Assembly (NCBI GenBank): GCA_029263125.1
Contig: JAJCYD010000017.1
Span: forward strand, 62,001-126,000
DNA length: 64,000 bases
Direction: 5' to 3'
From: Solirubrobacteraceae bacterium
GTDB taxonomy: Bacteria > Actinomycetota > Thermoleophilia > Solirubrobacterales > Solirubrobacteraceae
The notes under the pieces were generated by a model. It saw nothing but the letters and a program-made list of their open reading frames with translations, was not told the DNA's origin and ran no database searches. This document shows positions 1 through 10,551 of this stretch, piece by piece. The translations under genes and the position numbers were made by a program. The first letter of the stretch is position 1; the number at the start of each line of letters is the position of its first letter.

Positions 1-2977
1 CCGCCAGCATGTCCTCCAGGGGCGGACCGGTCTCGAGCTGTCCGTCGAGGCGTCGGTAGAGGTACTGCTCAAGGCCCATCAGCGCACTGGCCAGCGCTCG
101 CGGCACCCGCGCGTCGCCGCGGTGCCAGTGCATCACATTGCTGTTGCCCTGCAGCGTGTGCCACTCCCCGTCGAGCAGGATCTCGAAAGCAGCGCCGAGA
201 TCGAGGTCGTCGACGTCGGCCATGTCCGTGTCGGCCCAAGCAGCGGTGGCGTGATCGGCGATCTTGAGCAGAGTCGGTACCGCCACCTCTGGGGCGTGCG
301 TAAACAGCGCCAGCAGCGGACCGTTCTCAGGCAGCGGCGCCTGGCGGGTGATGCGGGTGCCGATCCCGAAGCCCGGCTCCAGCCCCAGATAGCGCTGTTC
401 GCCCGGCTCTCGAAGCAGGCCGACCATCACCAGCTCCGCCGCCGCCTGCGGATGGCGCAGCATCATGGGCACCAGCGGAGTAGGCGCCATCAGCGCCTCG
501 CGCAGCGCGTCGCTGTCCATCCGCCCCCAACCGTCCGCCGCGGGGTCTGCGTTCAAGGCCGCCGTGACGAAGCTCGCCACCTCGTCCGGCAGTTCAGCGC
601 CGGCCGCCAGGAACGCATTCCACAGCTTGTCGCGCTGATCGTCGTCCAGGCGAATGTGGTTGGCGTGGGCGTCGGCGGCGAACTGGCCCGCGGCGAAGCC
701 CAGTCGGGCGGCCTCCTCTCGTCCTGGATAGGCAGTGGGAGCAACCTTCAGCCATAGCTCGGCCATGGCTGCGGTAGCCAGCGGGGCCGCGGCCGCCACC
801 TCATCGCTGCGTGAAGCGAGGGCTCGCAGCACGGGAGGCCACAGCACCCAGGTCGGCAGTCGCCAGAGGGCGGCCATGGCGACCTGAAGATGGTGGTCGC
901 CGCCCTGGGTCAGGAGGGCGGCGCGCGGGTCGGGCACGCTCCCGCTGAGCATGAAGCGGTTGAGCATGCGGGGCAGCAGGGCTTGATCGCCCTCTAGCAG
1001 GATTTGCCAAAGGGCTTCAACGCGATCGGCTGCGTCGGCGGCGAAAAGCGGGGCGTCGAGGTAGAGGTCGGCCGCGATCTCATGTCCCGACTCGCGCAAG
1101 TCGTTGTGCTGCTCGAGCCAGTGCTCGACGCCCTCTTCGCGCAGGATGCGTAAGGCAAAGAGCCGGATGGCCCGATGCCACAGGGGCCGCGTCTCCTGCT
1201 CGCTGATGGTGGCCCGGGCGCCAGGCCAGATACCGAGGCTCTTGAAGCGCGACCAATCCCCGAACAGGTCGTGAGCAAAGCCGTAGGCGTCCTCCTCCGG
1301 CGCCAACGCCTCCTCGCCGCGCAGGTCGTCGATGACGGTGGCGTAGGCGGAGAGCCCGGCCGTGTCGAGTTGCCCGGCGGGCAGAGCCTCGACTAGATGC
1401 TCAGCCGTCCAGGCGGCCAAACCCCGAAGAAACTCGCCGCGCGCGGCGCGTCCGGCCGTGGTTCCAAGCGCAAGTTGGTTCCACCACAGCTCTGCCACTC
1501 CGGCCTCATCGCGGAGGTCCGCCACTGCCGCCTGCTCAGCGCCGCCCATGGCTTCGAGCACCACCTGCAGCAGCTTGGGGCGCCTCAGGACCTCGCGCAG
1601 CGAACCCTGAAAGACCAACTGGTGCAGCTCTTGGCGCTGTTCCAAGACCAATCGGATGTCGTCGTCATCGAGGTCGTCCATGACCACGGTGCTGGGCGTG
1701 GGTGCGTTGCTCTGAGCCATCAGCTGAGATACCCGTCCCACCGCGAAAGACTGACTGGTGACCAGGACCTGCAGCGCGCCGCCGCTTTCGGCGGCGGCAG
1801 ACGCTAGCGCGGCGCCCGCGGCGTGAGCAGCCGGGTCGTAACTGCGGTCCAGCCCGTCGACGACCACCCTGATTGGGGCATGGCCCAGCTCCAGCACATC
1901 CGCCAGGGCGAACCGCAGCCCCAGGCGGTTGCCGAAGCCAAGCAGTCCGTCGCCCAGGTCGCGGGGGCTGAGCCAGAGCTGGCTTGGGGCGGACCGCAGC
2001 CATGCCTTGGCGAGCGCGCTCTTGCCACAACCGGACGGTCCGGTCAGAAAGATGAACGTCGCTGCCGCGACCCCGGCGAGCTGCGCGTGAGCGCTGGTGC
2101 GGGGAAGATGGAGGCCGTCGACGAGTACATCGCGCACAGCGTTCACACGCTCGGTGGTGTGTTGCTCCAGCACCGCCCAATCCGGCGCTGCATCAGCGCG
2201 GCGGGCCAAGGCGAACTCAGCACCCAACTCCCGCTGCGCCCGCGCCCAGGTGATGGACCCGCCCGAGGGCCGAGTCCGAGCCACCAGCTGCAGCACAGCG
2301 TTGTAGAGGTCGTCCGCGCGTGCGGCATGCCCGGTGGACAGGGCGGCCTCACACCAGCTGCGAGCTTGCGCCTCAGCGCTTGAGTCCGCTGAGCGAAAGT
2401 CGAGATGCAGCGGTACCAGCCTTGAGATCAGTGTCGCAGGCGAGGCGTTGCCATTCGGGCCGTGCTGGGTGGCGAGCGCCTGCGGGCACCTGAAGGCCTC
2501 CCACAGCTGCCTGTCGGTGGCGTTGAAGTTGCCGGGGATTGCGATCCGTTCAGCCATCCGCTCCGGCGTGTCGTTTCTGACCGTTTCGATGAGCTCAAGC
2601 AGGCTGGTCCAGTCGTCGCCGGACGTCTGGCCGCAGATGAAGCCCAGGTAGTCGCGACCGAAGTCGAATTGCGGCGAGAGCGCGTGCTCCCAGGCCGCTA
2701 CCACGAAGTCGACCAAGGCCGTCGCCAGCAGGTCGAAGGCCTTAATGGAAGACCACCAGCTGGGCCCGTCGCCGCGAATGACCAGGTCATCCAGTGGACT
2801 GGGAGGCACCTTCTGCTGGAACTCCACAGCGCGCGGGACACCCAGCCCCGCTCCCACCGGCGCCTGCCCCGCCAGCATGGCCGCCAAGACCCACGCGCCC
2901 GCCCGATCCTCGAAGGAGAATCCTCCGCCGCCTGTCGTGAAGGCCGGGCTGACACGCTGCGGATCGGGCTCAGTCAC
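1..2977 (-). CDS. Large nuclease/P-loop NTPase (STAND-like), 3' end beyond window
   Basis: The reading frame stays open from GTG at 2977 to base 1, at least 992 codons, so the C-terminus lies outside the window. A TGA lies in frame just upstream and a weak GAGG precedes the GTG. The N-terminus has a GGGGFSFEDRAGAWVLA block (residues 16-32), then LDDLVI (62-67) and SIK (77-79), which I read as a possible PD-(D/E)xK-like nuclease fold of the kind joined to antiviral STAND ATPases. Walker A GPSGCGKS is at about 313-320 and a Walker B-like VVVDGLD near 371-377. The rest is helical and leucine/alanine rich, like a repeat sensor. A defence role is inference. The frame, the P-loop and the N-terminal block are seen directly. 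Confidence 0.7.
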   Translation of the reverse strand, partial: MTEPDPQRVSPAFTTGGGGFSFEDRAGAWVLAAMLAGQAPVGAGLGVPRAVEFQQKVPPSPLDDLVIRGDGPSWWSSIKAFDLLATALVDFVVAAWEHALSPQFDFGRDYLGFICGQTSGDDWTSLLELIETVRNDTPERMAERIAIPGNFNATDRQLWEAFRCPQALATQHGPNGNASPATLISRLVPLHLDFRSADSSAEAQARSWCEAALSTGHAARADDLYNAVLQLVARTRPSGGSITWARAQRELGAEFALARRADAAPDWAVLEQHTTERVNAVRDVLVDGLHLPRTSAHAQLAGVAAATFIFLTGPSGCGKSALAKAWLRSAPSQLWLSPRDLGDGLLGFGNRLGLRFALADVLELGHAPIRVVVDGLDRSYDPAAHAAGAALASAAAESGGALQVLVTSQSFAVGRVSQLMAQSNAPTPSTVVMDDLDDDDIRLVLEQRQELHQLVFQGSLREVLRRPKLLQVVLEAMGGAEQAAVADLRDEAGVAELWWNQLALGTTAGRAARGEFLRGLAAWTAEHLVEALPAGQLDTAGLSAYATVIDDLRGEEALAPEEDAYGFAHDLFGDWSRFKSLGIWPGARATISEQETRPLWHRAIRLFALRILREEGVEHWLEQHNDLRESGHEIAADLYLDAPLFAADAADRVEALWQILLEGDQALLPRMLNRFMLSGSVPDPRAALLTQGGDHHLQVAMAALWRLPTWVLWPPVLRALASRSDEVAAAAPLATAAMAELWLKVAPTAYPGREEAARLGFAAGQFAADAHANHIRLDDDQRDKLWNAFLAAGAELPDEVASFVTAALNADPAADGWGRMDSDALREALMAPTPLVPMMLRHPQAAAELVMVGLLREPGEQRYLGLEPGFGIGTRITRQAPLPENGPLLALFTHAPEVAVPTLLKIADHATAAWADTDMADVDDLDLGAAFEILLDGEWHTLQGNSNVMHWHRGDARVPRALASALMGLEQYLYRRLDGQLETGPPLEDMLA

Positions 2978-3081: not shown

Positions 3082-3627
3082 TCAGAGCAGGCTTTCGGCT
3101 TGCGCTTCAGGTCTGTAGGCGGCGCCCACCAGCCTCGTTGACACTCGCGATGATCGAACCACCTTCGCCGCCTGCCAGGGGTGGCAGCAACGTGATAGCT
3201 CGGCCGCTCCCGCTTTCCATGCGTGGCGGTCAAGCTCGGGCCAGTGACGGCTGGCTTGGCGGATGCGCGCTTTGGCCAGACTCCGCAGGGAATGGGCTGT
3301 TTCCTGCGACGCGGTCGCCGCAGGCCCGGTCAGTCCTCTTCGGGCGCGGCGGTCGGGTGCCACATGCCCGCCGTCGGGCACGCGAAAGTCCTCCTCGGTT
3401 TCCCCCAGGTTGAAGTCCATGACGGCGAGCAGGCCGGCTGCGCGTGCCGGACCGTCCATCAGCACCGCGAGCTGCTGCGCTACGCGTGCATGCTCGAAGC
3501 TCGGGCCCGGAACCATGTGGTGAACGCCCTGCCAGACCTCGTCGCGGCGATCCACGCCCGCGCGGTGACGGCGTTCGCGAAAGGCTTGCAGCTCGGGGGG
3601 CGGCGTCCCGAGTACGAGGGTTGCCAT
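3082..3627 (-). pseudogene. Decayed Uma2-family endonuclease-like gene
   Basis: The first ~95 residues (ERRHRAGVDRRDEVWQGVHH, then a FNLGE motif and FRVPDGG) match the start of Uma2/DUF820 proteins, a PD-(D/E)xK-fold family common in actinobacteria and cyanobacteria. After FRVPDGG the usual core with the VVEV(V/I)SP and catalytic Asp/Glu-x-Lys motifs is absent. An unrelated basic tail runs to a stop at 3082, and no other frame restores the family sequence. I therefore read this as a 5' fragment joined to foreign DNA, not a simple frameshift. The 104 bases between it and the large NTPase gene hold nothing recognised. Confidence 0.55.
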
Positions 3628-3654: not shown

Positions 3655-4866
3655 TCAGTGGCTGACGGCGGCGGCCGCCGCCTCGGACACGAGCGAGTCG
3701 GTGTAGAAGCGCTCCAGCGCGAAGGGCTCGATCAGCTGCGGCGTGCGGCCGGTCGCGATCAGCTCGGCCAGCGTCGTGCCGACGATCGGCGTGGCCTTGA
3801 AGCCGTAGGTCCCCCAGCCGGCGCTGACGACGAATCCGTCGACGTCGGTGAGGCCGAGGATCGGGCTGTAGTCGGGGCTGACATCGCACAGGCCCGCCCA
3901 GCTGCGCAGGACGTTGGCGTGCTCGAGCTGCGGGAAGAGCTCGAGCGTGTGGCGGGTGGCTTCCTGCAGGAAGTTCAGCGTGCCGTTCATGCGATAGGTC
4001 GTCCACGGCTCGATCTCGGCGCCGACGAGGATCTCGCCGCGGTCGGTCTGGGAGATGTAGACGTGCATCTGCGAGGAGACGATCACGACGTCCAGCAGCG
4101 GCTTCAGCGGCTCGGTCACGAACGCCTGCAGGATGTGCGTCGTGATCGGCAGCCGCACCCCGACCATGTCGGCGACGAGCGTGCTCCAGCCTGCCGTCGC
4201 GTTGACGACGGTGCCGGCCGCGACGCGACCGCGGTTGGTCTGCACCGCGCTCACCCGGCCGCCGGAGGTCTCGATGCCGGTCACCTCGGTGTAGGGGTGG
4301 ATCTCAGCGCCGCCGCGGTCGGCGGCGCGCGCGTAGCCCCAGACGACGGCGTCGTGGCGGATGATGCCGCCGGGCGGGTGATACAGCGCGCCCATGATCG
4401 GATAGGTCGCGTCGCCGCGCACCTGCATCTCGGGCGCCAGCGCCTGCACCTCGTCGGGACCGATGAAGCGGCTGTCGATGCCCAGCAGCCGGTTGACCTC
4501 GGCGCGCTCGCGCATGACGAACACCGAGCGGTCGGTGTGCGCGAGCGTCAGATGCCCGTTCTGGGAGAAGAGCAGGTTGAAGTCCAGCTCGGAGGCGAGC
4601 TGCTCGTAGAGCTTGACGCTGGCGTCGTAGAAGCGCGCACCCTCCGGCGTGCGGTAGTTGGAGCGCAGGATCGTCGTGTTGCGACCGGCCGCTCCCGAGC
4701 CGATGTAGTTGCGCTCGAGCACCGCGACGTTCGTGATGCCCCGCTTGGAGAGCTCGTAGGCCGTGGCCAGACCGTGGGCGCCGCCGCCGACGATGACGAC
4801 GTCGTAGGAGGACCGCAGCTCACCGCGCGGGCGCCACATCCGGTGGCGTCGCAGCAGGTCACGCAT
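3655..4866 (-). CDS. soxB: Sarcosine oxidase beta subunit
   Basis: 403-residue FAD-dependent oxidoreductase of the DAO superfamily, the catalytic subunit of heterotetrameric sarcosine oxidase, which oxidatively demethylates sarcosine to glycine and passes the one-carbon unit to tetrahydrofolate on the alpha subunit. The dinucleotide-binding GGGAHGLATAYEL motif lies at about 27-39. GGIIRHDAVVWGYA carries His171, which aligns with the histidine that covalently holds FMN in characterised enzymes. The start ATG overlaps the end of soxG by 8 bases, so the two are translationally coupled. It is the last gene of the operon; many genomes place soxB first. The cytoplasmic location follows from the lack of a signal peptide. 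Confidence 0.93.
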   Translation of the reverse strand: MRDLLRRHRMWRPRGELRSSYDVVIVGGGAHGLATAYELSKRGITNVAVLERNYIGSGAAGRNTTILRSNYRTPEGARFYDASVKLYEQLASELDFNLLFSQNGHLTLAHTDRSVFVMRERAEVNRLLGIDSRFIGPDEVQALAPEMQVRGDATYPIMGALYHPPGGIIRHDAVVWGYARAADRGGAEIHPYTEVTGIETSGGRVSAVQTNRGRVAAGTVVNATAGWSTLVADMVGVRLPITTHILQAFVTEPLKPLLDVVIVSSQMHVYISQTDRGEILVGAEIEPWTTYRMNGTLNFLQEATRHTLELFPQLEHANVLRSWAGLCDVSPDYSPILGLTDVDGFVVSAGWGTYGFKATPIVGTTLAELIATGRTPQLIEPFALERFYTDSLVSEAAAAAVSH

Positions 4867-5575
4867 CGAGCGCCTCGATCGCGTCGCTGCCGGCGAACAC
4901 GGCTGACAGCGGCTCGCCCGCGTCGGCCATGACGGTCCAGACGTACTCCGCCTGGGCGGCTCCGAACAGCACCAGGAAGCCGCTGTCGCGCTCGTGCAGG
5001 ACGACCGCCGGCACGCGCGCGACCGAGCCCGGCAGCAGCGCGCCGACCGGCGCCTCGCGGGCGCGCAGATCCAGCGCGGTCAGCGTCGCGAGCAGGTCCC
5101 GCGCGCGCGGACCGACGACGAGGACCGCTGCCATTCCGGCGCTGACGTCGACGACCGAGGCGAAGTCCAGCGCGCCCGCGGCCTCTTCGAGGCGGTCGTG
5201 CAGCGCCGCGACCCGCGACGGCGGCGCGACGACCAGCAGCCGCCGCGCGGTCAGCGGACACCACCAGCACCCGTCGCCGTCGCGGCGCGCCCGGCCGAGC
5301 TGCAGCGGACCGCCCGCCAGGGTGGCGATGTGCTGGGCGGCGGCCTGCACCTCGATCGTCGCAAGCCATGAGCGATCGGAGATCGCCACGCCGCAGCGCG
5401 CCGCCTGGACCTCGTCGGCGACGGCGCCAAACCGTGTCGCGACGTTCCACCCGTCGCGCACCTCAAAGCTCGCTCCGGCCCTCACGAGCTCGTGCTCGAC
5501 CGGGCTTCGCGCCAGCGGCATCTGTCCCGCGTGCGACCGCGCCAGATGGGGGCTGAGGAACGCTGGGCTAGCCAC
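4859..5575 (-). CDS. soxG: Sarcosine oxidase gamma subunit
   Basis: 238-residue gamma subunit with the GcvT-like fold of the family. The core runs from RSPVEHELV to the FGAAQAEYVWTVM region. The gamma subunit packs against alpha and helps form the folate/channel face; it has no catalytic residues of its own. The GTG at 5575 overlaps the soxA stop (GTGGCTAG). An internal ATG at 5521 would give 220 residues, closer to the usual 200, so the start is uncertain by 18 codons. Its place between soxA and soxB, with overlaps at both ends, supports the assignment more than its weakly conserved sequence does. Confidence 0.85.
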   Translation of the reverse strand: MASPAFLSPHLARSHAGQMPLARSPVEHELVRAGASFEVRDGWNVATRFGAVADEVQAARCGVAISDRSWLATIEVQAAAQHIATLAGGPLQLGRARRDGDGCWWCPLTARRLLVVAPPSRVAALHDRLEEAAGALDFASVVDVSAGMAAVLVVGPRARDLLATLTALDLRAREAPVGALLPGSVARVPAVVLHERDSGFLVLFGAAQAEYVWTVMADAGEPLSAVFAGSDAIEALDA

Positions 5576-8432
5576 GCTGGCGCTCGTTGTCGGGATCGTA
5601 GAACGCGCCGCGCACGACCTCGGCGCTGTAGTGGCGGCCCTCGTCGACGATCGCGATCTGCGATCCGGCGTCGCGCAGCGCGGTCGGCACCCACGCCAGC
5701 CCGATCGCGTGCCCGAGGCGCTCGCTGTGGCGGGCGCTCGTGACGCGACCGACCGGCGCGCCATCGACGACGACGGCGGCGCCCTCGTGCGGCACCGCCC
5801 CGTTGGACATGCGGAAGCCGACGAGCGTCTCGGCGTGCGCGCGCTCGGCGGCGAGCTCGAGCGCCCAGCGCCCGACGAAGTCCTCCTCCTTGTCGAGCTT
5901 GACGATCCACCCCATCGACGCCGAGTAGGCATTGGATTCCCCGTCGGTGTCCTGCCCGACGATGACATGCCCCTTCTGCAGGCGCAGAACGCGCTGGGCC
6001 TCCAGCCCGAACGGCCGGATGGCGTCCTGCGCCCCCGCCTGCGCGATCGCGTCCCACAGCGCCTGCCCGTGGGCGGCGGGAGCGTGGATCTCATAGCCGA
6101 GCTCTCCGACGAAGCCGATTCGCAGGACGAGCGCGGGGATCCCGGCGACGTGCGCCTGGCGCCCGTCGAGGTAGCCGAAGGCGTCGGGCGAGCAGTCCAT
6201 GTCGGTCAGGCGCTGCAGGATCGCGCGAGCGCGCGGGCCGGCGACGTTGACGGCCGCCAGCGTCTGGGTGAGGTCGGTGATGTGCGCGTCCAGGTCCCAG
6301 TCGGCCATCCACCACGAGAACCACTCCTCGACGGCGCCAGCGCCGCTGGAGGTCGTCGTGACGTAGAAGCTGTCCTCGTCGAGGCCGAAGACCGTGCCGT
6401 CGTCCATGATTCGGCCGGCGTCGGAGTTCAGCACGCCGTAGCGAAGCCGCCCGACCTTGAGGTTCGACAGGCGGTTGGGATACAGGCGGTCCAGCAGCTG
6501 GCCGGCCTGCGGCCCGCGCACGAGCAGCTTGCCCAGCGATGAGAGGTCGATGATCCCGGCGGCGTCGTGAACCGCGCGCACCTCCAGTGCCGGATCGCCG
6601 TAGTCATAGGGCCGCCGCCAGTCGCCGGCCCACATGACGTTGGCGCCAAGCGCGCGATGGCGCGCATGGATCGACGAACGCTTGGCGGGTTCAAACGGCC
6701 GGCCGGCGAGCACGCCCATCGCCACCGGCGTCCACGGCGGGCGGGCGGTCGTCTGGCCGACGGCCGGCGCGTCGACGCCGGTCTGGCGTGCGACGGCGCG
6801 GATCGCAGCGAGCTGACACATGCGCCCCTGACAGGGCCCCATCGTGACCGTCGTGTAGCGCTTGGACAGCTCGATCGAGTCATAGCCCTCGGCGACGCTG
6901 TAGGCGATGTCCTTGTCGGTCACGTCCTCGCACAGGCAGACGAAGGCCTTGCCGTCCGCGGCTGCGCCACAGAACGTGGGAGTCACCGCCGGCGTCGCCG
7001 GCCGCGCGAGCATGCGGTCAAGCTCGGTCTGCTCGCCGGCGATGCGGGAGTGCAGCGCTTCGTCCTCGCCCGCGCCGGCGGCGATCGCCGCGCGGGCGCC
7101 CGCGAGCGCACCGGACAGCTCGATCGCCTCGTCGCCGTCGATGCCCGCGAGCTCGCCGGCGGCCTGCACGTGCGCCGGGGTCTCGCCGGGCAGGAACTGG
7201 CCGCTGTGAGGCTCGAAGGCCATCGCCGTTCCGGCCTGCGCCAGCAGCGACGTCGCGGGAGCCGAGCCGCCGGAGACGACGAGCAGGTCGCAGTGCACTA
7301 CCCGCTCACCGCCGCGATCGGCGACGCGCGCAACCGTCACCCGTTGCACGGCGTCGTCGCCGCAGGCGCCGACGACCATCGCGCCCGTCATCACCTCGAT
7401 GCCGTGCTCAGCCAGTGAATCGGCCAGCGCCGTGACGGGCTCGCTGCGCTCGTCAACGACGAGCGCGATCGGCACGCCGGCCGCGTGCAGCGCGAGCGCG
7501 GCCCGCAGCCCGCGGTCGCCGGTCGTCGCGACGACCGCACGCGAACCGGGGCGCACGCCGTAGAGCGCGGTGAGCCGGAGGGCGCCGTCGGACGTCATGA
7601 CGCCGGGCAGGTCGTTGCCGGCGAACACCAGCGGCTGATCGATCGTCCCGGTCGCGGCGACGTGCGCCCGTGCGCGGATCTGATGCAGCACGCCGCCCCG
7701 GCGAACCGGGACGAGGCCGTCGTAGTAGCCCAGCGCCGAGGCGCCCGTCAGGATCTCGACCCCGTGACCCCGCGCGGCGCTCGCCAGCGACCGGGCACGC
7801 TCGTGGGAGCCCTCGTGCAGCAGCCTGCCGCCGGCCTCGGCGCCGTCGTCGACGAGCACGACGTCCGCGCCCAGCTCGGCGGCCGCGACCGCGGCCGACA
7901 GGCCGGCGAGGCCGCCGCCGATCACGAGGACGTCGGCGTGCCGGCGCCGGTAGGAGGTGCGCCATTCGCGCTCGTCGCGCCTGGTGAGCTTGCCCAGGCC
8001 GGCGATGCGCCGCAGGCCCCACTCGAACAGCGGCCACAGGCGGCGCGGACGGATCATCGTCTTGTAGTAGAAGCCCGGCGGCGTGAACGGCCCGCCGACC
8101 TTGTCGACCGCGCGCATGACGTCGCGCTCCAGCGAGGGCCAGGCGTTGAGGTGCTCGACGGCCATCCCGCTGCGCAGCGGCTCGGTGCACGCGCGCACGC
8201 CGGGGCGCCCGTCGACCGCGACCAGGCAGTTCGCGCAGGCGCCGCTGCAGCACAGCAGGCCGCGCGGGCGGTGGTACTTGAAGCTGCGCGAGAACACGCG
8301 CCGCCCGCCGGCGAACAGCGCCGAGGCGATCGTGTCGCCCTCGAACCCCTCGACGCGCTCGCCGTCGAAGCTGAAGCGCAGCGGCGAGCGGCGGTCGATC
8401 CGCTCGCCGGGCTGGGGCTCCAGCCGCGTCAC
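5568..8432 (-). CDS. soxA: Sarcosine oxidase alpha subunit
   Basis: 954-residue alpha subunit. Domains in order: an N-terminal ferredoxin-like segment with FKYHRPRGLLCCSGACANCL (about 50-70); a Rossmann NAD-binding domain with VIGGGLAGLSAA; a cysteine-rich BFD-like segment (VCLCEDVTDKDI, then GPCQGRMCQ); and a C-terminal aminomethyltransferase (GcvT) domain that binds tetrahydrofolate and forms 5,10-methylene-THF. I chose the GTG at 8432 because it overlaps the soxD stop as GTGA and gives the normal family length. A longer frame back to 8552 reads through soxD and is low complexity. The order soxD-soxA-soxG-soxB is tightly overlapped throughout. Confidence 0.94.
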   Translation of the reverse strand: MTRLEPQPGERIDRRSPLRFSFDGERVEGFEGDTIASALFAGGRRVFSRSFKYHRPRGLLCCSGACANCLVAVDGRPGVRACTEPLRSGMAVEHLNAWPSLERDVMRAVDKVGGPFTPPGFYYKTMIRPRRLWPLFEWGLRRIAGLGKLTRRDEREWRTSYRRRHADVLVIGGGLAGLSAAVAAAELGADVVLVDDGAEAGGRLLHEGSHERARSLASAARGHGVEILTGASALGYYDGLVPVRRGGVLHQIRARAHVAATGTIDQPLVFAGNDLPGVMTSDGALRLTALYGVRPGSRAVVATTGDRGLRAALALHAAGVPIALVVDERSEPVTALADSLAEHGIEVMTGAMVVGACGDDAVQRVTVARVADRGGERVVHCDLLVVSGGSAPATSLLAQAGTAMAFEPHSGQFLPGETPAHVQAAGELAGIDGDEAIELSGALAGARAAIAAGAGEDEALHSRIAGEQTELDRMLARPATPAVTPTFCGAAADGKAFVCLCEDVTDKDIAYSVAEGYDSIELSKRYTTVTMGPCQGRMCQLAAIRAVARQTGVDAPAVGQTTARPPWTPVAMGVLAGRPFEPAKRSSIHARHRALGANVMWAGDWRRPYDYGDPALEVRAVHDAAGIIDLSSLGKLLVRGPQAGQLLDRLYPNRLSNLKVGRLRYGVLNSDAGRIMDDGTVFGLDEDSFYVTTTSSGAGAVEEWFSWWMADWDLDAHITDLTQTLAAVNVAGPRARAILQRLTDMDCSPDAFGYLDGRQAHVAGIPALVLRIGFVGELGYEIHAPAAHGQALWDAIAQAGAQDAIRPFGLEAQRVLRLQKGHVIVGQDTDGESNAYSASMGWIVKLDKEEDFVGRWALELAAERAHAETLVGFRMSNGAVPHEGAAVVVDGAPVGRVTSARHSERLGHAIGLAWVPTALRDAGSQIAIVDEGRHYSAEVVRGAFYDPDNERQRG

Positions 8433-8710
8433 GCAGCGCCCTCGCCGCGGTCGGCGACGTCCTCGGGCAGCGCGGTCCAGCTGACGAGGTTGGAGGTCGT
8501 GTCGCGCTGGGCGATGAACCAGGCGCGACAGCCCGAGCGGTGATGCCACCACTCCAGCTGGGCACCCGCGGCGTTGCGGCGCATGTAGACGTAGGTGTGC
8601 AGCTCGCGCTCAGACGGGCGCGAGCGCGGCCGCGCGGTCAGCTCGCCGCCGAAGGCGAAATCCGTGACCTCGCGCGGGCCGCAGTTGGGGCACTGCAGGA
8701 CGAAGGACAC
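8429..8710 (-). CDS. soxD: Sarcosine oxidase delta subunit
   Basis: 93-residue zinc-binding delta subunit. CPNC (residues 7-10) and a later HHRSGCRAWF segment supply the typical zinc ligands, and REVTDFAFGGE and YVYMRRN are family hallmarks. The start is GTG at 8710. No clear Shine-Dalgarno is visible, and the region where one should sit is taken up by a 10-bp inverted repeat (8715-8742). The stop overlaps the soxA start by 4 bases. It is the first of the four subunit genes, 29 bases downstream of the methyltransferase fusion. Confidence 0.92.
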   Translation of the reverse strand: MSFVLQCPNCGPREVTDFAFGGELTARPRSRPSERELHTYVYMRRNAAGAQLEWWHHRSGCRAWFIAQRDTTSNLVSWTALPEDVADRGEGAA

Positions 8711-8714
8711 GCGC

Positions 8715-8742
8715 TAGTGGGCCATCCAGTAGTGGCCCACTA
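8715..8742. promoter_or_regulatory. Perfect 10-bp inverted repeat before soxD
   Basis: TAGTGGGCCA (8715-8724) and TGGCCCACTA (8733-8742) are perfect inverted copies around an 8-base loop. The hairpin contains the stop codon of the methyltransferase fusion and ends a few bases before the soxD GTG. It lacks a U-tract, so it is not a classical terminator. It could stabilise mRNA, limit read-through, or occlude soxD initiation. Confidence 0.6.
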
Positions 8743-10551
8743 CGGCCCGTCCGCCGCGTGCGTGATCTCCAGGATGTAGGCCACCATCACGTCCTCGTCG
8801 GAGAAGGTGAGGTGATAGGCGTCGGATTGGTCCTCGACGCGCTCGATCTGCGACTGGGCGGCCTTGAAGACGTCGCCGAAGGCAAAGAAGCTGAAGTCGA
8901 CGACCCGTGCGCGCAGGCCGCGCTCGCGCAGCAGCTGGTCGGTCCAGCGCTGGCTGAGGATCGACAGCTGCATGATGTAGGCGACGCCGCCCGCGGCGAG
9001 CGTCGCCGGCAGCAGCGAGATGAGGTGGTCGACGAGGTTGCGCCCCCAGTAGTCCAGCGGACGGTGGGTCACCGTCTGCTCGTAGGGGTCGACGGGCATC
9101 TGGTACAGGCTCGCCACGATGACGTCGTAGCGCTCCTCGGGCACCCACAAGAAGAGGTCGACGTCGCTGCCGCTGACACGATCGGCGACACCGTTGCGAA
9201 ACGCGTTGGCCAGCGTGTTGGCGACCGCCGCGCGGTCAAGGTCGATCGCGTGGACATGGGTGGCGTCGTTGAGCGCGAGCTGGACGGCGAGGATCCCCGC
9301 GCCGCAGCCGATGTCCAGGCAGCGTTTGCCCGCGCCGACGCGCCCGGAGAAGAGGTGCTTCCAGACGAGGAAGCTGCCCTGCGTGGGCACGAAGACGTCG
9401 GGCTCGCAGATGATCTCGGGAACCTCGAGCGGGTACAGCAGGCGCCCGCCGTCGTTGCGCCATGGCTGCGGGGGGACGGGGACCTCGAGCTTCAGCGGCC
9501 GCGTCGATGCGCGCGGCAGCTGCGGCCGTCGAACGGGATCGGGCTTGGCATCGGCCAGCACGAGCTGCGCGGCGGCGATGTGCGCGGGCGTCACGCCGCA
9601 GCAGCCGCCGATGATCTGCGCGCCCTCCTCGCGCCAGCCCAGCGCGGTGGCCGCGAACTCCGCCGGTCCGATGTCCTGGTCGGACTTCCAGCCCGCCTGC
9701 GTGTAGTAGCCGAGATTCGGATAGACGCCGAGCGGCAGGTCGGTGAAATCGCGCATCCACGAGACCATCCCGGGGACGTGGTCGGGCGGCAGGCAGTTGA
9801 TCAGCAGCGCGCCGACGCCCATCTGCTCGAAGCGGTGCGCGGCACGGCCGAAGGCGTCGCCCTCCGGGCCGCCCCAGTGCTGGCCGTGGACGCCGCAGAC
9901 CCCGAGCCGGCAGCGGCGGAAGCTCAGCCACACCGGCAGGCCAGTGCGCAGCAGGCTCTCGACGGCGGCGAACGTCACGTCGTCGCGGATGAGCGACAGC
10001 GTCTCGACGAGCAGCAGATCCGGACGGTCGTACTCAAACGCGCGCCCCAGCAGGTCCAGCGTCTCCACGCGACCGGGATCGAAGGCGTCGGGACCCAGGC
10101 TGAAGGCCAGCGCGACGTCGTCGCGCTCGTGCTGCGCGATCGCCTCGCGCCCGAGCTGGATCCCGCGGCGGGCGGCGTCCATCCAGTGCAGCGGCCTGGC
10201 GGACCCCATGAGCGCCTGGTCGACGAGGCCGGGATCGCCGAACAGCCCCCAGGTGTTCGTCGTCAGCACGTGGCATGCCGCGTCCAGGTAGCGGCGGTGA
10301 AGGTCCATGACCGCCTCGGGGGCGTTATAGAGCGCGCGCGTGCCCCAGATGCGCTCGTCGTCATGGCTGCCCGACATCGGCAGCGCCGCGTCGAGCTCGG
10401 TCCCCATGGCACCATCCAGGACGACGCAGCGCTGCGAGGCGAGCATGCTCTCGATGCGCGCGTAGGGCTCCGCGGACACCGGCCCGACCTGGTCCACGGA
10501 GCTCATCCGTGGGCCGCCGGCAACGGGCGTGAGATTGCACGTTCTCGGCAT
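8740..10551 (-). CDS. Homocysteine S-methyltransferase / class I SAM methyltransferase fusion
   Basis: 603 residues with two domains. The N-terminal half (about 40-330) is a zinc-dependent homocysteine S-methyltransferase barrel with LDGAMGTEL near the start, NCLPPDHV and GGCCG, which supply the three zinc cysteines. The C-terminal part (about 390-600) is a Rossmann methyltransferase with motif I LDIGCGAGILAVQLAL, nearest in look to PrmA/PrmC-type enzymes. A betaine:homocysteine methyltransferase here would yield dimethylglycine, two steps above sarcosine, which suits its place ahead of soxDAGB; this is inference. The substrate of the second domain is unknown. ATG at 10506 is an alternative start that removes 15 weakly supported residues. 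Confidence 0.8.
   Translation of the reverse strand: MPRTCNLTPVAGGPRMSSVDQVGPVSAEPYARIESMLASQRCVVLDGAMGTELDAALPMSGSHDDERIWGTRALYNAPEAVMDLHRRYLDAACHVLTTNTWGLFGDPGLVDQALMGSARPLHWMDAARRGIQLGREAIAQHERDDVALAFSLGPDAFDPGRVETLDLLGRAFEYDRPDLLLVETLSLIRDDVTFAAVESLLRTGLPVWLSFRRCRLGVCGVHGQHWGGPEGDAFGRAAHRFEQMGVGALLINCLPPDHVPGMVSWMRDFTDLPLGVYPNLGYYTQAGWKSDQDIGPAEFAATALGWREEGAQIIGGCCGVTPAHIAAAQLVLADAKPDPVRRPQLPRASTRPLKLEVPVPPQPWRNDGGRLLYPLEVPEIICEPDVFVPTQGSFLVWKHLFSGRVGAGKRCLDIGCGAGILAVQLALNDATHVHAIDLDRAAVANTLANAFRNGVADRVSGSDVDLFLWVPEERYDVIVASLYQMPVDPYEQTVTHRPLDYWGRNLVDHLISLLPATLAAGGVAYIMQLSILSQRWTDQLLRERGLRARVVDFSFFAFGDVFKAAQSQIERVEDQSDAYHLTFSDEDVMVAYILEITHAADGP

Follow-up and report, generated by a model that had tools for sequence, protein, structure and literature searches.

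A fusion of homocysteine S-methyltransferase and class I methyltransferase beside soxDAGB in Thermoleophilia: a possible relay of methyl groups to folate

Animals return the methyl group of S-adenosylmethionine (SAM) to folate through sarcosine, and to our knowledge no bacterial route with the same outcome is commonly described. In mammalian liver, excess methyl groups are disposed of via GNMT (PMC5203850), and in SAR11 the glxBCD genes have been assigned to a putative N-methylglutamate synthase and soxBDAG to a putative N-methylglutamate dehydrogenase (PMC3160333). Here, we analyse 64,000 nucleotides from a Solirubrobacteraceae bacterium (assembly GCA_029263125.1, contig JAJCYD010000017.1, positions 62,001 to 126,000 of the forward strand; hereafter the window), in which a gene fusing a homocysteine S-methyltransferase (HMT) to a class I SAM-dependent methyltransferase precedes soxD, soxA, soxG and soxB. 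The anatomy of these genes, the intact zinc and SAM motifs of the fusion, its clustering with metK, pfkB and soxDAGB, its interchange with the mgs genes (for the N-methylglutamate synthase MgsABC) and the lack of MgsC in the window genome are consistent with a relay in which the fusion and SoxDAGB would take methyl groups out of the methionine/SAM cycle and, by way of an N-methylated amino acid, bring them to folate. We hold this reading tentatively, at a probability of roughly 40%.

Gene order and recurrence of the fusion beside soxDAGB

A survey of how often the fusion lies next to soxDAGB, proposed in the original prediction for this locus, finds the association to be recurrent. In a tree of fusions, the copies linked to sox genes represent at least three distinct lineages, to which a more distant fourth, outside the set used for the tree, would add (genome G358, locus L098), and eight fusion/soxDAGB pairs lie no more than about 25 kb apart on one contig. 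The same soxDAGB clade was found in 27 of the 38 genomes with the fusion versus 50 of the 361 other genomes of the class Thermoleophilia, a co-occurrence with a p-value of about 1e-13 that is inflated by common descent; that the linkage recurs in distinct lineages is therefore the better argument. For example, genome G289 (L083) encodes the fusion, metK, pfkB, soxD, soxA, soxG and soxB on one strand, followed by PurU, with 4-bp overlaps among the first three genes and a gap of 6 bp between pfkB and soxD, and G406 (L080) has the same order up to the end of its contig. Similarly, two fusions, pfkB, FolD, PurU, soxDAGB and metK are clustered in G021 (with FolD and PurU encoded on the other strand), and soxDAGB, PurU, FolD and a fusion follow in succession on one strand in G358.

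All coordinates given here are whole-window positions, and predicted proteins were searched against Pfam and NCBIfam profiles. The fusion (8740–10551, minus strand) encodes 603 amino acids from the ATG at 10551, or 587 from that at 10503. It is followed on the same strand by soxD (8429–8710; delta subunit, 93 amino acids, GTG start, CxxC and HxxxC motifs), soxA (5568–8432; alpha subunit, 954 amino acids, with Fer2_4, FAD/NAD and SO_alpha_A3 domains and the folate domains GCV_T and GCV_T_C), soxG (4859–5575; gamma subunit, 238 amino acids, divergent, with a weak Pfam SoxG match at E 1.1e-7) and soxB (3655–4866; beta subunit, 403 amino acids). The predicted five-gene, minus-strand layout ending in soxB is thus confirmed, down to its junctions: the reading frames of soxD and soxA share 4 bp (GTGA), soxA and soxG overlap by 8 bp (GTGGCTAG) and soxG and soxB by a further 8 bp (ATGCGTGA), and exactly 29 bases lie between the stop codon of the fusion and the start of soxD. 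The D-A-G-B order was considered as a novelty and rejected, as every class relative in which all four clade genes were found has the same order; what is unusual about the locus is the fusion, D-A-G-B being normal in Thermoleophilia.

The 29-base gap consists almost entirely of one perfect 10-bp inverted repeat, TAGTGGGCCA-CTACTGGA-TGGCCCACTA, which spans the fusion stop and extends to imperfect 20-nt arms reaching the GTG of soxD (8705–8752, minus strand). The folding energy of this hairpin is -36.5 kcal/mol (z -4.3), a strength equalled by 10 of the 1048 tiles taken from that strand, and the hairpin carries no U tail. It could act as a transcription stop or as a gate on soxD translation, and a single transcript across the junction is therefore only putative. 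An Rfam scan at the operon returned no riboswitch or known RNA at gathering scores and one chance-level microRNA match (E 0.043). A consensus promoter and a U-tailed terminator were also sought and none was found, in a search that is uninformative at the local G+C.

Beyond the operon, a minus-strand open reading frame (ORF; 3082–3627) begins 27 bp past soxB; it is Uma2-like by eye, has no Pfam match and is possibly truncated. A second minus-strand ORF, of 1678 amino acids and with a weak AAA_16 match (window 1–2977 and beyond), spans the start of the window between soxB and a BHMT-like gene described below.

The SoxDAGB clade and its suppliers

The standard domains of heterotetrameric sarcosine oxidase are all present in SoxDAGB (Pfam), including the GcvT-like folate domain in the alpha subunit. 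SoxB shares 45% identity with sarcosine oxidase 2gag and 41% with an mgs-linked SoxB from Paracoccus, and keeps equivalents of His173, the residue linking flavin mononucleotide (FMN), and of Arg70 and Lys359 (2gag_B numbering). However, all four subunits score below the curated NCBIfam cut-offs (soxA 758.5 against 1164 bits, soxB 446 against 529, soxD 76.5 against 116.5 and soxG 45 against 144), which marks the complex as a divergent member of this group.

Window SoxB belongs to a class-wide clade with 74–79% identity among the loci compared. In seven loci of this clade GlxB-GlxC-GlxD stand immediately before soxD, with GlxD alone in one more, and most Glx-preceded loci also hold a divergent GlnT gene; soxB is often followed in the clade by PurU/FolD or Fhs/FchA. 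Within this single clade, SoxB proteins from operons with the fusion are intermixed with those from mgs operons, and the two sets have near-identical substrate-site segments. Window SoxB lies outside the alphaproteobacterial mgs-linked SoxB clade in a midpoint-rooted tree with long branches. Because the same SoxDAGB clade is found behind MgsABC-like genes in many relatives, the complex is probably better named an N-methyl amino acid demethylase, acting on N-methylglutamate or sarcosine, than an established sarcosine oxidase. On a plain reading, this would be one enzyme type with two different suppliers, MgsABC and the fusion. The window genome has no MgsC, nor do G289, G406, G358, G284 and G329, whereas G021 and G005 have it. 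Replacement of MgsABC by the fusion is no more than a tendency (Fisher p 0.012, without correction for relatedness).

The fusion protein and its neighbours

The N-terminal half of the fusion matches Pfam S-methyl_trans (E 1.3e-39, residues 43–328) and is joined by a linker to a C-terminal half with PrmA, MTS and Methyltransf_25 matches (residues ~392–486). Across 30 aligned fusions, the zinc ligands C237, C301 and C302 (numbered on the 587-amino-acid form), the SAM motif, W85, E167, T168, Q468, P470 and P473 are invariant. The class I SAM motif D-x-G-x-G-x-G and the acidic residue after strand 2 are likewise intact (D397, G401, G403 and D421, all invariant), and such conservation of both halves is expected if both are active.

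The HMT half scores best against the MmuM-type NCBIfam model, which matches all 30 members, though at 106 bits versus a curated equivalog cut-off of 215. It falls under every curated NCBIfam HMT cut-off, the BHMT model is among its weaker matches, and no pterin- or B12-binding domain of the MetH type was found in the fusion (Pfam). All 30 fusions carry Gly, Ala or Ser where BHMT has Tyr77, a betaine-binding residue (PMC3871600); the position of BHMT Tyr160 holds Thr. The HMT half is thus predicted not to be a canonical BHMT.

These features bear on the pathway first suggested for the locus, which was either a betaine-to-dimethylglycine-to-sarcosine route or another methyl-transfer module feeding the tetrahydrofolate (THF) pool. 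The second suggestion is supported, as the fusion recurs near soxDAGB in the company of genes for SAM synthetase, PurU, FolD and an adenosine-kinase-like protein. Passage of betaine through the fusion is not supported, given the lack of Tyr77, the MmuM-type best score and a SoxB clade that is often mgs-linked. A direct route, with the fusion as betaine-homocysteine methyltransferase and SoxDAGB as dimethylglycine/sarcosine oxidase, would agree with the BHMT zinc cysteines present in the HMT half, with the retention in SoxB of the sarcosine oxidase Arg and Lys and of the His that links FMN, and with ABC transporter genes of the glycine-betaine type close to the fusion of one relative (L053), but would leave the class I half unexplained, and we regard it as the most improbable of the alternatives. 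Moreover, the betaine step would be performed by a separate BHMT-like gene, which lies 7.7 kb downstream of soxB, outside the window (L005:6871-7962), beside a divergent IclR gene, and whose product matches human BHMT at E 1.8e-57. Its nearness and the presence of the fusion in 19 of the 29 genomes holding its family could also be counted for a betaine route, and in further families of the class (f7) its homologues are often encoded divergently to fusions. Betaine may therefore enter the module elsewhere, via this BHMT-like gene.

In the class I half, the NPPY motif of the HemK/PrmC glutamine methyltransferases is absent and A-S-L-Y/P-Q-x-P stands in its place. Here the solved MmtN sequence, retrieved with a plant MMT query, reads G-C-L-P-Q, so that the fusion shares the Q and has S for C; an apramycin N-methyltransferase aligns with A-N-L-P-R-Q, its Q one residue further on. 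The acceptor may therefore be nitrogen or sulfur. In structure, the class I half matches HEMK2 (Z 22, 2.1 Å over 187 residues) more closely than MmtN (Z 17.5). Assignment of a substrate from the fold was attempted and rejected, with HEMK2, METTL5, PrmA, MmtN and AerE all matching.

The strongest rival to a relay is an S-methylmethionine (SMM) cycle within one protein, as it covers both halves and the SAM-cycle neighbours, though not soxDAGB. The class I half would make SMM from methionine and SAM and the HMT half would methylate homocysteine, tuning SAM and methionine, with soxDAGB a mere neighbour in a one-carbon (C1) region. The MmuM-type score, the resemblance of the class I motif to that of MmtN and the structural match to this enzyme are consistent with such a cycle, as is the clustering with metK, ahcY and pfkB, which fits SAM homeostasis; SMM cycling outside plants has also been proposed (PMC9135737). 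However, the repeated coupling to soxDAGB, PurU and FolD would be left unexplained, the fold is closer to HEMK2 than to MmtN, the Q motif is not unique to MmtN, and, of the methionine-binding residues Glu127 and Arg132 of MmtN, the fusion has no clear equivalent of Glu127. We consider an SMM cycle unlikely.

Of 399 class genomes, 38 hold full-length or partial fusions; a sample of 216 genomes from the phylum gave one apart from the window genome. Named relatives with the fusion are metagenome-assembled genomes of Thermoleophilaceae, Thermoleophilia and other Actinomycetota, and one Rubrobacteraceae. No published description of such a fusion was found in the open-access literature, which is weak evidence of novelty. 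A second copy in the window genome (contig C18, L006) is 53% identical to the window copy and lies in the order MT699, fusion, LuxR/GAF regulator, PfkB kinase and SAM synthetase. SAM synthetase, PfkB kinase, LuxR/GAF regulators and small GcvT-like proteins are frequent neighbours of the family, with AhcY in some loci. The nearest solved relative of the PfkB kinase is 3kd6, presumably a nucleoside kinase, and AhcY and MTHFR were found in all ten genomes tested. These neighbours are predicted parts of the methionine/SAM cycle.

Several further genes were observed around the family. The 699-amino-acid protein beside the C18 fusion (L006:1552-3648) has a MetE-type barrel at its N terminus in a low-confidence model and a class I methyltransferase at its C terminus; a PDB sequence search with this protein gave no match, and it looks like another case, unrelated to the fusion, in which a barrel of the methionine-synthase kind is joined to a SAM methyltransferase. 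MetH is split in the window genome (contig C32, L007:1798-5352) into a 367-amino-acid homocysteine-domain ORF and an 808-amino-acid pterin/B12/activation ORF. The small GcvT-like proteins divergent from the fusion (L083:10275-11249, L031:9950-10717 and others) are without a C-terminal barrel. Lastly, protocatechuate-degradation genes adjoin the fusion, a LuxR pair and the GcvT-like gene in one genus (L032, L033 and L047), hinting at aromatic O-demethylation as a methyl source; as the general role this was rejected, these neighbours being confined to that genus, but it is retained as a lead.

A possible methyl relay and its known counterparts

In the proposed relay, the HMT half would transfer a methyl group from a donor to homocysteine, yielding methionine; MmuM, to which it is nearest in sequence, takes sulfonium donors. 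SAM synthetase (MetK) would convert methionine to SAM, and the class I half would pass the SAM methyl group to an amino acid, most likely glutamate or glycine, releasing S-adenosylhomocysteine for clearance by AhcY and the PfkB-type nucleoside kinase. SoxDAGB would then oxidise the N-methyl group, delivering 5,10-methylene-THF for processing by FolD, PurU and Fhs. The fusion would in this way occupy the place that MgsABC has in other members of the class and offer SoxDAGB another source of its substrate. We infer the methyl donors and acceptors, the direction of flux and the making of the SoxDAGB substrate by the class I half.

The flux could also run in reverse, with SoxDAGB demethylating an imported N-methyl compound, methylene-THF being converted through methyl-THF to methionine and SAM, and the fusion spending SAM on another product. 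The folate domains of SoxA are kept, MTHFR and MetH are present and metK adjoins the fusion in relatives, all of which would suit this direction. However, PurU and Fhs/FchA near the sox operons indicate that C1 units are oxidised or cycled on folate rather than used to build methyl groups, and the HMT half is without a cobalamin or pterin domain for methyl-THF. A reverse flow is thus distinctly unlikely.

Several observations weigh against the relay. The soxDAGB clade was not found in 11 of the 38 fusion genomes, and the fusions of L030, L031 and L032 are clustered with metK, pfkB or GcvT-like genes but no sox genes, so the fusion has a role independent of SoxDAGB. In the window genome, metK and pfkB lie on another contig and a strong hairpin separates the fusion from soxD. 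MgsC also occurs in 16 of the 27 genomes holding both the fusion and soxDAGB. In addition, the class I half has a fold like those of HEMK2 and PrmA and a Q motif in common with MmtN; amino acid N-methylation is only predicted. The hairpin, the location of metK and pfkB and the 11 fusion genomes without sox would also fit a reading in which the fusion has no functional link to soxDAGB here and simply lies upstream with its own terminator-like hairpin, its partners being the SAM-cycle genes of contig C18. Given the recurrent linkage in separate lineages and the tight operon of G289 and G406, however, we consider this improbable.

If the fusion does make an N-methyl amino acid for SoxDAGB, soil actinobacteria would own a clustered version of the animal route, and many 'sarcosine oxidase' annotations would need to be re-read as demethylases with different suppliers (MgsABC or the fusion). 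A further idea is possible but rather doubtful: that a single chain performs homocysteine remethylation and SAM-dependent amino acid N-methylation, the two ends of the SAM cycle, and forms with SoxDAGB a bacterial shuttle draining SAM methyl groups into folate. Such a shuttle would correspond, in clustered and partly fused form, to the BHMT-GNMT-sarcosine dehydrogenase loop of liver, and would add to MgsABC another way of feeding a demethylase of the sarcosine oxidase type.

The locus is built from known enzyme families in a new arrangement. Like sarcosine oxidase SoxBDAG (2gag, 1vrq), SoxDAGB has the same four subunits and domains, with the key SoxB residues kept, but it falls in a separate clade, follows the D-A-G-B order, scores below the curated cut-offs and differs in the substrate-site loop (EIEPWTTYR against GIDSYNGYG). 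Its close relatives share with the N-methylglutamate pathway of MgsABC and MgdABCD (PMC3160333) a position behind GlxB-GlxC-GlxD, a divergent GlnT and nearby PurU/FolD, although the window genome is without MgsC and its SoxB is outside the alphaproteobacterial mgs-linked clade. The HMT half resembles MmuM (5dmm) in its best family model and zinc ligands, but reaches about half the curated score and is fused to a class I methyltransferase. MmtN or MMT with HMT in the plant SMM cycle (PMC9135737) similarly pair a class I methyltransferase with an HMT and have a Q motif ending strand 4; the known cases are separate proteins without a sox link, however, and the fold of the fusion is nearer HEMK2. 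With HEMK2/N6AMT1 and PrmA the class I half shares its fold, but it has lost NPPY in favour of A-S-L-Y/P-Q-x-P. Finally, the liver enzymes BHMT, MAT, GNMT, SAHH and ADK with sarcosine dehydrogenase would do the job proposed here, the disposal of excess SAM methyl groups via an N-methyl amino acid. GNMT belongs to a different methyltransferase family from the class I half, and, unlike the liver loop, the locus has two of the steps fused and its genes clustered.

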